From assembly GCA_019828595.1 (NCBI GenBank), contig JAHQRK010000015.1:1054001-1118000 (forward strand): 64,000 bases of DNA, written 5' to 3'. Source of the DNA: Aphanomyces cochlioides (Eukaryota > Oomycota > Saprolegniomycetes > Saprolegniales > Verrucalvaceae). The notes beneath the pieces are model-generated. The model was not told the DNA's origin, did not search any database, and saw nothing but the letters and a program-made list of their open reading frames with translations. Positions 1 to 64,000 of the stretch are shown here, one piece after another (the first letter of the stretch is position 1; each line of letters starts with the position of its first letter). The position numbers and the translations under genes are program-made.

Positions 1-1
1 A

Positions 2-97
2 TGCGGCGGTCGCAACTACAATGGGCCAACCCAATGTGCCAGCGGCTTCAACTGCAAGAACTGGAACGAATGGTACAGCCAATGCGTTCCCAACTAA
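2..97 (+). CDS. 3' end of a CBM1-bearing protein (partial)
   Basis: This is the last 31 codons of a gene that begins before the window. It encodes one CBM1 cellulose-binding module: CGG at the start, Cys at TQC and FNC, and the C-terminal NEWYSQC with the stacked aromatic pair, then VPN and TAA. The frame is not the longest ORF here; it was chosen because it reproduces the C-terminus of the neighbouring LPMO genes. By analogy the missing part is probably an AA17 LPMO module with a Pro/Ser/Thr linker (inference). Confidence 0.85.
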   Translation, partial: CGGRNYNGPTQCASGFNCKNWNEWYSQCVPN

Positions 98-901
98 GAA
101 TGCTCGCGATCTCCAACGTCTTAATGTGTCTAATGTCTATGTGTGCTTTTTACTCACTGCGAATTTCGCTTTGGTTTTCATCGAGCTCGTAGGAGCAACT
201 TGGCAGAGCCCTTGGCTGGTAGAAGCCGACCTCAACTTGCACGCTTGCCAATCAAACTTGAGTCGAATATTGACATTCAAACTTGCTCACAGCATAATTG
301 CACAACTGCATCGAGTTGGCACTGCTTAAAGCGTAGCAAAAGAGAAAGGATTCGACAGGAACGGGAATCGAGACTGCAGGGGGGCTTCAGCCGCTAACAC
401 AGTTGTCGCTTAACTTTTGGAGGTGCCTTTCGAGTTGTATCCACCCACAGGCAACAGCCTTGGAAGGAGATGGCATACTATAAGGGGAAGACTACTTGAA
501 ATACAAAAGCACTAGGCTATGGTGTACGAAGAAGACAACTGCACAAGTGCAGGAAGTCGAGTGCGCATTGATATACGCGAATTTCCACGCCAGCAAGACT
601 TTGCTCTTACAACCACCCGACTTCGGTACCCATGGTCAGCTTTTCAACTTCAATATCTTCTAACCATCGCAATGCACATTCTCGCTTACACATCGTCTAG
701 TCTGAGCACCCCGACGCCAACTGACACGATCCCCCCCCGCTCCTTCGGGAGTAAAGCTCACTCGGACGCGCTATCAGTTCACATTCCCATTGATATCCGC
801 GCGACCCCAGGTGGCACAGTCATGCTTTGCCAAGATAAGTATTGACGGATTTTGTTCTAGCTCTTCACTCAACAACAGTTTCCCGCAACGTGGACATAAC
901 G
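98..901. other. Intergenic, nothing recognised
   Basis: Only short overlapping frames are present, none resembling a known protein. A run of eight C lies near 730. It ends where the first inverted-repeat arm starts. Confidence 0.5.
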
Positions 902-985
902 CAAGTGCGAATTATTCATGAACGACAGAATCACTTGTCAACAAGCAACCAACTGGATTGGTTTCAAGCAAATGTCTACACAAAG

Positions 986-1876
986 TTACTTGGGCACGCA
1001 TTGGCTGTACCATTCGTTGTGGGCCTTGCAAACATCCGACGTCTTGCACACGGTCGGGCCTTGAAAACCACTGCCTCCGCATTGACCCCAGGTTTTGACA
1101 CTTGGGACGCATTGGCTGTACCACACACTCCACTTGTGGCAGTGGAGACCACTGGCACATTGAGTCGGACCAGTGTAGCCTTGACCACCACAAGGATAAT
1201 ACACTTCAACTTGTCCGTCGGAGGGAGGAGATGGCGTAGCAGGAGGCGGAGTAGGTGGGCTACTCGTAGAAGGACGCATCGATGTCGGACTCGACGGAGG
1301 ACTAGCCGAGGAGGGACTTGGGGTCGCACCACCGGCAATGCGAACGCAGTTGATGTAGATTTGCCATTGAGGAGAGTGCAATGCCAACCAGTACACGGTC
1401 AACAAGTTCGATTTCTTGCACGTTGGCAAGTCAATCGGCATGGTGCCATTGGGGATGTTGCGAGCGCAATCGTCGTTTTGGTAGACACGAGTGTTGTCGC
1501 ACCAGACTTCACATGGACCTTCGTGCGAGGGGGTGAAGCCTTCTTGGCCGTGGTGCCAGTACACGTTGCCATCCGCTGCAACTCCCGAGGAGTTCCATTC
1601 GCATCAGAGAAACCACAAGTGCCACAGCCCCCGTCATTCGCCGCGACCAAGTCCTTCAAGGTCTTGTATGACGACGCCTTGAAATGGGTGGTGAACGCAT
1701 TGGCGTTGTATTCCGGAGACCCGTTGTATTGGTGACCGGGGAGAACCTTGGGACCATCCATCGTGCCGCAGAAGGACGTGACGCCGAAAGTACGTGGGCA
1801 ATGGGTCGTTGAGGTACCCGTGACCAAGGGCGGTGGAGGCGAGGGCCAAGAGGAAGGTTGGGATCGAGGTGAACAT
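986..1876 (-). pseudogene. AA17-type LPMO with two CBM1, frameshifted (left-arm copy)
   Basis: The reading starts MFTSIP, has a signal peptide ending at LG, and a mature start HGYLND, as in the intact gene at 16789. The frame is lost near 1790, after PLPT, where several codons plus one base are missing compared with that gene, and again near 1579, where a single base is missing before the ADGN-equivalent. After the second break the frame is open: WHHGQEG, SHEGPCEVWC, the WQIYINC strand, a short Pro/Ser linker and two CBM1 modules ending VPK. Both breaks are present in the right-arm copy, so they predate the inverted duplication or were copied by conversion. Confidence 0.9.
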
Positions 1877-1881
1877 GGCGA

Positions 1882-61335: not shown

Positions 61336-61863
61336 CTGCCAGTCGGGATTGTGGAGAGCCAACCAGTAGATCGTCAATTGCTTGGCGTTGGCGCAGGCCG
61401 TCGACGTGACGGTCATATCACCAGTGGGAACATTGGCAGCGCAGTCGTCGTTTTGGTAGACGCGTGTGTCGTCGCACCAGAGCTCGCAAGGACCCGTGTG
61501 GGATGGCGTGAAACCTTCGCCGGCACCGTGGTGCCACTTGACAATGCTGTCGGAGGGGAACGGCTTGGGGGTGCCATTGGCGAGGGTGTTGCCGCAAGCG
61601 CCGCACGTGCCACCGTTGGCAGAAATGAATGACTTCAAGTCGGTGTACGAGGACTTTTTGAAATTGGCCGTGAATGCCGCCGAGTTGGCTTGAGGGCTCG
61701 TGTTGTACAGGTCACCAGGGAGAACCTTGGGGCCGTTCATGGTGTCACAGAAGGCCGTGACATCAACATTGGGCTTGAAGGTGGCCAAAGGGTCGCCCAG
61801 TTAGCCGTGGCCGTAGGCGGTAGCAGCAAAGGCGACAAGGGTAGCGGCGATTGATGTGAACAT
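61336..61863 (-). pseudogene. AA17-type LPMO (HGQL group), nonsense and copia-truncated
   Basis: Starts MFTSIAATLVAFAATAYG and His-Gly, then TAA (61803-61801) where the twin at 57366 has CAG and paralog 54247 CAA. The rest is open: LGDPLATF, FCDTMNGPKVLPG, SHTGPCELWC with the second copper His, and WLALHNPDWQ, where the copia reverse transcriptase joins in frame at Asn-Lys-Ser. Linker and CBM1 are lost. It is the converging partner of 57366-57752, with about 3.7 kb between the broken ends. Confidence 0.9.
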
Positions 61864-61868
61864 GGCGA

Positions 61869-61885
61869 GGCGAATTGAATTGTGA
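61869..61885 (-). promoter_or_regulatory. Oomycete initiator element
   Basis: TCACAATTCAATTCGCC on the minus strand, 22 bases before the ATG at 61863. Confidence 0.55.
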
Positions 61886-63365
61886 GGATGAATCAAAGAG
61901 GCTATCGCGTGATACGGGTCAAGAACTCCCAGGTGCGACCAGCGACGTGATGTAAAGAATGTCGACAGTCGTGCAGAGCAAGTACAGTACTACTTGTCAA
62001 ACCATCCCATTCCCGAATTTCACTCGAATCCATGTCAACAACTCAGGCCAAGCAGCATGCAGCAATCCGGTCGTTTCGTTGGCGGCGCTGTCATCAAGTC
62101 GCTCGTCTAACGATGCGTGGAGGAGCCCAAGACGGTCGAGTCTTCACAGAGTTGTCGTTGCCGTCGTATGAAGTTCGAGAGGTGCACTTTTCGTTGTCCA
62201 GCGTGTCATGTCGCCTAGTTTCTCAACATAGGTGGCGTCCAAGCAGCGACCACTCGTGGGTGATCTGGCGGCGGTACTTGAACTGCGATGTTATCCATGC
62301 TCTCCCACCAAAGGAACGACCCACTGGAATGCGGCACTGCATAGTAGAGACTAGGAGAACAGATAGAATCGTGGAAATCATCGTGGGTGTGGCCATATGC
62401 CGCATGTGGATTACATGATTGTAAGGCGCCTCCATCTCAAGTCCAAGTGAATGCCGAACGCACTGCGTCAAACCACGCTTGATCGTGGAGAAAGTCTGTC
62501 GAAAGATGCCGAGAGTCTTGACAAGGAGTAGCAGAGATGGCAATGTTTTCTTGTCAATTCGAACCATGGCATCGCCAGTTTCTCCATCGAGAGTTGTCCC
62601 CGTCACCGGATAGAACTGCGTTTTCTATACAGTCCGTCTCCAGTTGATAGCAACGTCTGATTGGAACTTCGTCCTAGCCGTGAAGTCTGGCCAATGCTAC
62701 AGCGCAAGAACGTAAATTGTATTGCAATGTCAGTCTCGAGCTACTCGAGCGGTCAATCCTTGTCTTGTCAACGCCATTCTCCAGACTTTGGCCATGCCTG
62801 TCCAAGCCGGAGTCTACCGCGGAGTGCCACTCACGGATGATACGAGGAATATCACAGAAACGCATGAAGAGATCAGGCGTGTCGGGGTCGTTAGTTAATT
62901 TCGCGATACTGTAGTCGAGGTCATGCGTCTGTACCGCTGGTTTACGAGAGCAATCTTCCATTCATTCAATCTTGCGGTCAAACATCCCCCGACGACCAAG
63001 GGGACAAGGACAGCCGTCCATCTTCAGCTCCCTCCCGATTACTATTTTGACGACTGCTACCGTCGATGAAGTTGAAATATACCGGTCGTCTCAATGTGGC
63101 CATCCATTTGAAAACGAAGCGAATGCAAAGTTTACGTAGAGTTGACGAAGCCTGGTGCTTGGCGCTGCCAGTGTTTGGCCGTCGGGCAATCGACGATAGC
63201 AATGGCTACGACTACACTGTGGCTGTTCAAACTCAAAAGCGGAGGAACTTGCCACCAAACAAGGCAGTGTTAACAAAGAATCACTCAATTCAAAAGCATT
63301 AGCAAGCTCAAATGCAAGAAAACAAACTACGAAGCCATGCAAACAGTGTGCGAAGTCACAATAGC
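61886..63365. other. Intergenic, nothing recognised
   Basis: Short overlapping frames only. Confidence 0.5.
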
Positions 63366-64000
63366 TTACGACGGGACGCATTGAGAGTAGTAAGGGGAGT
63401 ATTGCTTGCACACCAAGCCTTGTTGGCACGACGTTGGGCCAGAGTAACCCTGACCACCACATTGGCCGTACACTGGGACGCTGCCACCACCACCACCGCC
63501 GTTCGAGGGAGGGGAACTCGTGGATGGAGATGGCGATGGGCGGTAGGTGTCCGGAGGAGGGGGCGATGGACGAGTGGTGACCGTTGGCGACGACGACGAA
63601 GGCGTGGGGGGTCCGCCACCACCGCCACCGCTCGACAATGGCACGCAGTTGATGTAGATTTGCCAGTCAGGGTTGTGGAGAGCCAACCAGTAGATCGTCA
63701 ATTGCTTGGCGTTCTTGCACGCTGACGAGCTCACCGCCATGTTGCCAGTAGGAATGTTCGTTGCGCAGTTGTCGTTTTGGTACACGCGTGTGTCGTCGCA
63801 CCAGAGCTCGCAAGGATCCATGTGGGATGGCGTGAAGCCTTCACCGTCGCCGTGGTGCCACTTGACAATGTTGTCGGAGGGGAAAGGCTTGGGGGTGCCA
63901 TTGGCGAGGGTGTTGCCGCAAGCACCGCACGAGGCAGGGTTTGCGGTGATGAAGGCCTTCAAGCTGTATTCAGGGCTGTTGTTGTATTGGTCTCCAGGGA
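63366..64000 (-). CDS. AA17-type LPMO (HGQL group) with one CBM1, 5' end outside the window
   Basis: The window shows the frame from PGDQYNNSPEYS onwards. About 16 residues that paralogs have here (the NSAAFTAHFKSSSYAT region) are missing in frame, so the join reads YSLKAFITANP. The second copper motif is SHMDPCELWC rather than SHTGPCE, changing two residues next to the His. WQIYINC, a Gly-rich then Pro/Ser linker (GGGGGG before PPTPSSSS, then RPSPPPPD), and a CBM1 (VYGQCGG, SPYYSQCVPS) follow, with TAA at 63366. The in-frame deletion removes part of the core, so activity is doubtful; the N-terminal His is outside the window. Confidence 0.85.
   Translation of the reverse strand, partial: PGDQYNNSPEYSLKAFITANPASCGACGNTLANGTPKPFPSDNIVKWHHGDGEGFTPSHMDPCELWCDDTRVYQNDNCATNIPTGNMAVSSSACKNAKQLTIYWLALHNPDWQIYINCVPLSSGGGGGGPPTPSSSSPTVTTRPSPPPPDTYRPSPSPSTSSPPSNGGGGGGSVPVYGQCGGQGYSGPTSCQQGLVCKQYSPYYSQCVPS

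Follow-up and report, generated by a model that had tools for sequence, protein, structure and literature searches.

The genome of Aphanomyces cochlioides, an oomycete that causes root rot of sugar beet, carries a cluster of 31 loci of the AA17 family of LPMOs over about 110 kb, and within it lies a block of genes, the HGTL type, whose catalytic domain falls among sequences of the other great oomycete lineage. Taken as a whole, we hold with good confidence that these data are best explained by a resident AA17 cluster that received an HGTL gene by transfer, with local gain of a linker and CBM1 and subsequent amplification, a reading inferred from phylogeny, distances, taxonomic distribution and DNA similarity. 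As to the core of this history, it is likely that the HGTL gene was transferred into the ancestor of the plant-infecting Aphanomyces, gained its linker and CBM1 there, with a neighbouring resident gene as the source on at least one occasion, and was amplified. An AA17 gene of the Pythium/Phytophthora lineage would have passed horizontally into the common ancestor of A. cochlioides and A. euteiches and come to sit inside the resident AA17 cluster. There it would have acquired a linker and CBM1, once or more (one HGTL tail type appears to have its nearest relative in a resident gene beside it), and then been amplified; the gained CBM1 would have turned it into a cellulose-tethered enzyme.

Extent of the cluster and condition of its loci

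Searched by tblastn with eight of its own catalytic domains, the window, i.e., the whole stretch of 64,000 nucleotides that was analysed, contains 23 AA17 catalytic-domain loci or fragments; the 50 kb on its left hold five more and the 30 kb on its right three. The outermost matches in the genome search lie at C7:1,015,626 and C7:1,125,930, and the E-values, which range from 1e-121 to 3e-5, exclude chance. The original prediction of about 23 loci of one LPMO family agrees with this count. The catalytic frame is uninterrupted at 17 of the 31 cluster loci and at 9 of the 23 in the window (16843, 27022, 29137(-), 33241, 35761, 37199(-), 39426, 54301 and 63621(-)). At locus 35761 the CBM1 frame is lost within the linker, and locus 63621(-) crosses the right window edge with about 16 domain residues missing; excluding these two leaves seven complete genes, the number of long open genes that had been predicted.

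On the plus strand, the complete genes are AA17-CBM1-CBM1 of HGYL type (16789..17874; the ATG was picked by alignment in an ORF from 16714), AA17-CBM1 of HGAL type (26968..27909), AA17-CBM1 of HGNL type (33187..34041; 97% to A. euteiches P0001), AA17-CBM1 of HGTL type with a Peronosporomycete-type catalytic domain (39363..40184), and AA17-CBM1-CBM1 of HGQL type (54247..55218). On the minus strand are an AA17-CBM1-CBM1 gene of HGGL type (28462..29712), of a lineage common to A. astaci and A. stellatus, and an AA17-CBM1 gene of HGLM type (36896..37771). The three N-terminal types named in the original prediction are visible, but its "HGYL/HGNL" type pools several lineages.

The remaining 14 window loci are broken in various ways, again as predicted. 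The domain is split over two frames at 1319, 6703, 19291, 47453, 49744 and 51528. Intron bridging was considered for such copies and rejected; because the public model P0063 omits the conserved strand of the catalytic domain where the stop lies, the two-frame copies are treated here as putatively broken. They include a broken HGYL copy (19291..19795, plus) and a broken HGQL copy (51307..52098, minus), whose A. euteiches counterparts, P0005 (95%) and P0010 (93%), have a full-length domain. Locus 25014 is an HGNL copy disrupted near the N-terminus (24950..26021, plus), and locus 57420 an HGQL copy truncated at its 3' end (57366..57752, plus). Locus 61333, also HGQL (61087..61809, minus), has a stop near the N-terminus, and its 3' end is replaced by what by eye resembles copia-type reverse transcriptase sequence, the domain match stopping at residue 160. 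In the HGTL block, locus 41252 has a stop within the catalytic domain (41144..41995, plus), locus 45607 lacks the N-terminal part (45607..46211, plus), and short fragments lie at 42814-43009 (plus), 43085-43156 (minus) and 44205-44541 (minus).

AA17 assignment and predicted function

That the window genes belong to AA17, an assignment that the original prediction had left to a profile check, is supported by profile and model comparisons. A profile of seven window domains (six native and one HGTL) matched the P. infestans AA17 LPMO of solved structure (PDB 6z5y) over positions 1-169 of 174 with E 3e-23, and the predicted HGNL fold superposed on 6z5y with a TM of 0.81 at 29% identity in the Foldseek alignment. 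An HGTL-led profile matched characterised AA17 at 2.9e-15, over its C-terminal part. With the HGTL model, whose first 16 residues are of low confidence, Foldseek gave no match at E <= 0.001 and 6z5y was absent from the top 50; AA17 structures were found by a second structure aligner. In AA17, the N-terminal His and a second His form the copper histidine brace and a Tyr is axial. All three residues are kept in 17 of 17 open copies, and a hydrophobic leader, judged by eye only, directly precedes HG. Nine of the ten window ORFs submitted exceed the curated cut-off of 20.6 bits for CBM1 (PF00734), as predicted, the tenth being a transposase. No catalytic-domain model was found by Pfam in the AA17 proteins searched or by NCBIfam for the three AA17 proteins searched, and tblastn against phages gave no match.

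The products of the intact genes would be secreted copper enzymes that have His at the N-terminus and are joined through a P/S/T-rich linker to one or two cellulose-binding CBM1 modules, copper and secretion being inferred. Sabbadin et al. 2021 reportedly found pectin activity for P. infestans AA17, and by analogy the intact AA17-CBM1 enzymes probably attach to cellulose-rich wall material and cleave polysaccharide of the plant wall by oxidation. The main text of the sugar-beet/A. cochlioides transcriptome paper contains no AC1031 identifiers, the series that includes the A. cochlioides proteins AC1031_0055xx.

The enzymes may instead work on the oomycete's own cellulose wall, as the available text of PMC8393829 suggests for animal-infecting Saprolegniales. 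CBM1 tethering would suit this role and the same architecture is present in animal parasites, and it is a real, if rather unlikely, possibility; against it, the other known occurrences of the HGTL type are in Peronosporomycetes, and one 20-row clade of native lineages contains only the two plant-infecting species among the rows used. Rows that were partial or redundant were dropped from the tree with this clade (A. astaci P0036; A. stellatus P0032, P0033 and P0074; A. euteiches P0006, P0030 and P0062), and broken A. cochlioides copies enter the trees as public models in their deposited form (P0063, P0083).

Origin of the HGTL catalytic domain

The HGTL block occupies 39.4-50.3 kb of the window. 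The catalytic domains encoded there share 64-75% identity with Phytophthora/Globisporangium proteins, which are 58-72% identical among themselves, and about 35% with the HGNL neighbour. The identities between HGTL and these proteins equal or exceed those between Globisporangium and Phytophthora, which differs from the native class of the same family that served as yardstick, represented by one A. astaci row (P0013). G. splendens P0116 (63-64% to Aphanomyces, 55-66% to others) was left out of the identity means. In the trees, HGTL is nested among Peronosporomycete sequences, with Peronosporomycete outgroups. The larger tree was built from 100 proteins, of which 10 with catalytic matches below 110 aa were left out, and its inner support is weak (16-64); the smaller one comprises a hand-picked 41 of the 100. 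Topology tests rejected both a single clade of all Saprolegniales rows and an HGTL superclade without Aphanomyces.

As regards distribution, a word-based search of clustered predicted proteins did not find the HGTL type in A. astaci, A. invadans, A. stellatus or Saprolegnia, and none of the 77 HGTL matches is named as another Saprolegniales species, some of them being metagenome proteins without a species name. The best-scoring A. euteiches protein is 82-85% identical to the HGTL copies and shorter ones 89-91%, compared with 93-99% for most native copies. Foreign base composition was not seen in HGTL, whose GC content (53.7%; 66.1% at third positions) lies inside the native range, as expected for an old transfer, and no donor flanking DNA was seen around the block. 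No AA17 transfer between oomycetes was found in the part of the literature that was available for searching.

The HGTL type might also be an ancient paralogue that predates the split of Saprolegniales and Peronosporales, was lost in other Saprolegniales and was retained in plant-infecting Aphanomyces. A similar ancient-acquisition reading is given for the PL1 pectate lyases of A. euteiches in the available text of PMC5907361. The HGTL superclade includes several old paralogues in Peronosporomycetes, and a position of Aphanomyces HGTL as sister to the near Peronosporomycetes is not rejected (AU p = 0.36). However, when this sister topology is forced, the branch that ought to cover the interval up to the Globisporangium/Phytophthora ancestor comes out with length 0, and the rejection of a superclade without Aphanomyces and the high identities, unlike those of the native class, also speak against it. 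A slow rate of evolution might account for some of the similarity to Peronosporomycetes, the root-to-tip paths being 0.30 for Aphanomyces, 0.42 for Phytophthora and 0.32 for Globisporangium. On balance, we consider the ancient paralogue unlikely.

Linker and CBM1 of the HGTL copies

Under the transfer reading, the CBM1 would have been added within Aphanomyces, and the named Peronosporomycete HGTL relatives have no annotated CBM1. The linker and CBM1 of the intact HGTL gene (39981..40177, plus) are closest genome-wide to genes 2-6 kb upstream, the complete HGLM gene being among the nearest relatives; the stretch has five genome matches including itself, and is 71% identical to C7:1090354-1090559. 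Two tail types occur among the HGTL copies. The first is present in 39363 and 41144, and the second in 45607, in 47453 (47453..48333, plus; HGTL, in two frames) and in 49744 (49744..50636, plus; HGML, split at the same place as 47453 and 97% identical in DNA to its catalytic part). The CBM1 of 47453 and 49744 shares only 42-43% identity with the one in 39363, and the best resident relatives compared for it are HGNL33 and HGLM, at 56-58%. The second-type tail DNA (47453/49744) has no match outside the HGTL copies, and the CBM1-bearing HGTL proteins of A. euteiches have this second type. The two types imply either two gains or strong divergence, and the second type counts slightly against the transfer reading.

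Native lineages and recent duplications

Most native lineages are old: for 16 of the 23 native loci A. euteiches has a counterpart that is 93-99% identical, which places these lineages before the split of A. cochlioides and A. euteiches. From sequence comparison, the recent events in the cluster appear to be copy losses and a few births through small, often inverted, gene-sized duplications, and some losses look specific to A. cochlioides. The predicted "active birth and death" therefore holds for the losses and few recent births, but not for most native lineages.

Four pairs have 100% identical catalytic DNA, and three of them are inverted; their arms measure 0.8-1.5 kb, are spaced 0.3-3.7 kb apart and are 98.1-99.9% identical. 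For example, a broken HGYL-type AA17 with CBM1 (902..2421, minus; catalytic part 1319-1827) recurs inverted at 6109..7628 (plus; 99.67%), with the domain in two frames in both arms. The HGLM copy at 35707..36519 (plus), with an open catalytic domain and CBM1 out of frame, lies in an arm (35215-36578) that is 98% identical, inverted, to 36879-38263, and the HGQL copy open over the right edge (63249..64000, minus) belongs to an inverted pair whose other arm, at 99.9% identity, is C7:1119137-1120179. The breaks that the original prediction described as shared are borne out by 1319/6703 (100% over 509 bp) and 47453/49744 (97% over 521 bp). Three further pairs are 93-97% identical, and elsewhere the best paralogue is 67-89% identical in DNA.

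Inverted, partly broken pairs could form hairpins from which small RNAs arise that adjust the AA17 family, and according to the available text of PMC10080066, AA17 genes are one of the main classes of sRNA target among the secreted CAZymes of Phytophthora. The three inverted pairs, in which the catalytic DNA is identical and the spacers are short, would fit, but the pairs may be duplications only, and we regard this role as quite improbable. It is very unlikely that the copy number is inflated because misjoined haplotypes or palindromic reads gave rise to the near-identical pairs: four pairs, three of them inverted, do have identical catalytic DNA, but their short, closely spaced arms differ at some sites, paralogues outside the close pairs are more diverged, and the 16 native counterparts come from other assemblies. 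Finally, the original prediction treated all copies as one family, and a single AA17-CBM1 radiation with HGTL as its most divergent member would suit the position of HGTL within the array, the neighbour-like linker and CBM1 of its intact gene and the clusters of likely duplicated AA17 genes in P. infestans (available text of PMC10080066), but this has next to no chance of being correct, since a single Saprolegniales clade is rejected for the catalytic domain, which lies outside the local radiation and shares about 35% identity with the HGNL neighbour versus 64-75% with Phytophthora/Globisporangium.

Significance and comparison with known systems

According to the available text of a 2026 review (PMC13327255), it is unclear if the parasitism of animals by Saprolegniales and that of plants by Peronosporales form one line or a succession of independent events. 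If true, the proposed history would be an oomycete-to-oomycete gene transfer followed by domain capture, associated with plant parasitism in an order whose known members are otherwise mainly saprotrophs and parasites of animals, and the borrowed wall enzyme would be a concrete, testable piece of the origin of Aphanomyces as a plant pathogen. It would also challenge the "early acquisition, later loss" reading given for another A. euteiches/Phytophthora wall enzyme in the available text of PMC5907361. The cluster pairs native and putatively borrowed catalytic domains with similar CBM1 tails, so each part's role is directly testable.

The window AA17s resemble the P. infestans enzyme 6z5y in fold, N-terminal His, second His and Tyr, but carry CBM1 modules. 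The Phytophthora/Globisporangium proteins P0087, P0090, P0094 and P0099, annotated as hypothetical, have a catalytic domain 68-75% identical to HGTL and the HGTL N-terminus in common; they have no annotated CBM1, whereas the Aphanomyces copies mostly have one and sit inside a native AA17 cluster. The AA17 clusters of P. infestans are likewise clustered and likely duplicated, and no foreign block or CBM1 gain is described in the available text (PMC10080066). A. astaci P0013, A. invadans P0020 and P0022 and S. parasitica P0024 share the native AA17-CBM1 architecture, and the HGGL lineage is common to A. cochlioides and A. astaci. In animal-infecting Saprolegniales one or two relatives were found per species, in contrast to the 31-locus cluster; the available text of PMC8393829 gives about eight AA17 copies on average. 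The same text describes a nine-gene genomic island of AA15 in A. astaci, an LPMO island in the same genus but of a different family, with copies described as identical.

Between the arms 902..2421 and 6109..7628 lies a DNA transposon (2788..5127, plus; Pfam Plant_tran, E 7e-40), presumably of PIF/Harbinger type, with 97-98% copies on C1, C56 and C34.

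Extent of the AA17 cluster

The window spans 1,054,001-1,118,000 on a 2.10-Mb contig (C7) of the 76-Mb genome of Aphanomyces cochlioides, a member of the Saprolegniales that attacks sugar beet. Most genome matches to its catalytic domains fall in one cluster, C7:1,015,626-1,125,930, in two genome searches that each scored up to 40 first-look candidates and may miss more distant relatives. The A. cochlioides proteins AC1031_005542, _005543, _005550, _005551 and _005552 match this cluster. By tblastn, 31 catalytic-domain loci or fragments occur in the 144 kb around the window, 23 of them inside it (loci are named by window coordinate, negative or >64000 when outside). 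The catalytic domain is in a single open frame in 17 of the 31 (nine of the 23 window loci). Both histidines, His1 and the second one, as well as the tyrosine are conserved in all 17 open copies. Seven of the nine open copies in the window are complete genes, and the copy numbers of the original prediction, about 23 loci with seven long open genes, were accurate.

The cluster is genuine, and its enzymes belong to a known family; the clustering itself is not new, because AA17 clusters, together with many AA17 small RNAs, are reported for Phytophthora (PMC10080066). Annotated protein counts for the family are probably inflated, since the public gene models P0028 (window 19490-20301), P0063 (41144-41995, with a conserved catalytic strand missing at the stop), P0112 (45951-46211) and P0083 (47390-48330) cover broken copies.

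Origin of the HGTL block

The finding worth following is a block of eight loci of the HGTL type (types refer to the mature N-terminus) at 39.4-50.3 kb, one of them complete (39363-40184(+)), which is probably a horizontally acquired and locally refitted LPMO lineage. Its best matches outside Aphanomyces are from Phytophthora, Nothophytophthora and Globisporangium, plus metagenome proteins without a species name. Within Saprolegniales, a database protein search returned HGTL-type matches only from A. cochlioides and A. euteiches, the remaining matches being native (non-HGTL) AA17s at 36% or less. None of the 77 proteins at E <= 1e-10 in an HGTL profile search was named A. astaci, A. invadans, A. 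stellatus or Saprolegnia.

The Aphanomyces HGTL sequences of a 55-row tree form a clade (100/100), which is nested together with Globisporangium and Phytophthora in a clade of 25 rows (98/96). Further Peronosporomycetes are outgroups to the latter, and the other Saprolegniales AA17s form a separate group (99/96). When restricted to 170 catalytic columns, a 27-row clade receives 100/96 and the 25-row set 85/96. In a 115-row tree, nine HGTL rows are nested in successive Peronosporomycete sets (SH-aLRT 98 for 32 rows and 97 for 30 rows), the inner nesting being weakly supported (64 and 16). A single clade of all Saprolegniales AA17 rows was rejected (p = 6e-6, 4e-6), as was a Peronosporomycete superclade excluding Aphanomyces HGTL (p = 0.003, 0.001); the topology test did not reject a sister position of Aphanomyces HGTL to the nearest Peronosporomycetes (p = 0.36).

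Distances help to tell transfer from old paralogy. Mean HGTL identity is 71.4% for Aphanomyces-Phytophthora, 71.1% for Aphanomyces-Globisporangium and 66.2% for Phytophthora-Globisporangium, using 2, 7 and 3 chosen rows and leaving out G. splendens P0116, which is lower in identity to all groups, in the same direction as the means. For native AA17s, the highest identities of A. cochlioides to Peronosporomycetes are 48-51%, and those between Phytophthora and Globisporangium 59%. Within the genus, A. cochlioides reaches 65% with A. astaci and 71% with A. invadans. The closeness of HGTL to Phytophthora thus equals that of native genes to congeners, and under vertical inheritance HGTL would have to have evolved much more slowly. 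By the outgroup measure Aphanomyces is not unusually slow, given the identities to the outgroup row lgn110 (Aphanomyces 53-54, Phytophthora 50-57, Globisporangium 56-57%). Root-to-tip paths are 0.30, 0.42 and 0.32, respectively, and under a forced sister position of Aphanomyces HGTL the branch leading to the Peronosporomycete ancestor shrinks to zero.

Linkers and CBM1 modules

The Peronosporomycete HGTL matches have no annotated CBM1, and none was found in the three that were rescanned. Five genome matches were obtained with the linker and CBM1 DNA of the intact HGTL gene: the gene itself, its HGTL sister 41252, two HGLM genes (71%, 70%) and the HGNL gene 33187, the last three all 2-6 kb upstream. 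The same three are the top non-HGTL CBM1 modules at the protein level (59.0, 58.7 and 58.7 bits), followed by one on C14 (56.0 bits) and others at no more than 50, among the 150 of 230 candidates scored. The likeness to these neighbours begins directly after the catalytic domain.

One simple CBM1 capture is counted against by a second tail type in 47453 and 49744, whose CBM1 is 42-43% identical to the first. Its DNA matches HGTL copies only, and the nearest resident CBM1 among the modules compared are those of the native HGNL33 and HGLM lineages (56-58%). The CBM1-bearing A. euteiches HGTL proteins P0085, P0095 and P0097 have this tail at 97%, so at least this second type is older than the A. 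cochlioides/A. euteiches split. The frame break of 47453-48333 and 49744-50636 coincides with a gap in P0085, and the matches of P0095 and P0097 cover the catalytic domain incompletely; either the break or some unrecognised feature at this place may therefore also predate the split.

The window also encodes a protein with five CBM1 repeats (30196-31266(-)), which the last CBM1 of the HGQL gene 54247-55218(+) resembles (AAWAQC...YECQETDVGYSQCVEV), suggesting a further module exchange within the cluster. Elsewhere, at G000:C1:3729681-3772494, 19 copies of a CBM1 protein that all score equally for CBM1 follow one another in direct orientation, spaced mostly at ~2.24 kb and sometimes at 2.5-2.7 kb. 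The product of one unit is a cysteine-rich protein of 201 aa, parts of which are CBM1-like.

Age and turnover of the native array

For 16 of the 23 native loci there is an A. euteiches protein with a 93-99% identical catalytic domain, three locus pairs having one protein in common. Identity is lower for 24950 (86%), 63621 and 65340 (75%), 71424 (57%) and 69748 (49%), and is ~50% for 1319/6703, a value that mixes pieces from different frames. In a 44-row tree, HGNL25, HGAL27, HGNL33, HGLM37, HGYL and HGQL are united in a 20-row group (87/85) whose members all come from A. cochlioides or A. euteiches, many of them as one-to-one pairs, and the HGGL lineage groups with A. astaci and A. stellatus. 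On this evidence, most of the array's diversification took place before the two species split. Losses at 19291, 51528 and 61333 look specific to A. cochlioides, because the A. euteiches counterparts have a full-length domain (P0005 95%, P0010 93%, P0007 96%).

Catalytic DNA is identical in four pairs (-25509/-24000, 1319/6703, 35761/37199 and 63621/65340). The 144 kb contain eight pairs of repeats that reach 90% identity and a length of 400 bp, five in inverted and three in direct orientation; two of the eight pairs, -37132/-29862 (inverted) and -14704/-6089 (direct), cover no AA17 catalytic locus. Since plain unequal crossing-over yields direct copies, we infer that sequence was duplicated locally in inverted orientation, possibly followed by conversion of one arm by the other. 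In one pair the arms flank a transposon that has 97-98% copies elsewhere in the genome; in another AA17 copy the 3' end has given way to copia-like sequence. Several CBM1 genes form equal-scoring pairs, one gene on each strand and 5-10 kb from the other (C17:132708-/138784+, C17:270427-/275985+, C34:60578-/69763+ and C89:166513-/171688+), a hint that such duplication may be widespread in the genome. An ORF at window 21247-21810(+) weakly matches Phage_int_SAM_4, a tyrosine-recombinase-type N-terminal domain (20.5 bits, below cut-off), and is possibly a crypton-like element.

Function and relatives outside the cluster

What the sequences and models show are the domains, the active-site residues and the fold. 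The proteins would likely be secreted, loaded with copper at His1, tethered to cellulose and then cut wall polysaccharide oxidatively; activity, substrate and a role in root infection are inferred. In the view of PMC8393829, animal-infecting Saprolegniales likely use their AA17s with fused CBM1 to remodel the cellulose of the oomycete itself, but the expansion in plant-infecting species speaks, short of proof, for plant walls. CBM1 proteins are reported to number 130 in A. euteiches and 7 in A. astaci (PMC5907361).

Genome searches that scored up to 40 candidates each placed disrupted AA17 copies outside the cluster on C15 and C30, and there is a weak further match on C12. Two divergent AA17-like genes lie at C7:1,827,451 and C2:302,285; in both, the second copper histidine seems to be missing, because SYQGACELW and WGVGPCEVW stand in place of the SHxGPCE of the cluster. 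The stretches that hold them, C7:1827001-1828700 (L067) and C2:301901-303100 (L068), may represent non-catalytic LPMO relatives, and the gene in L067 retains two CBM1 modules.
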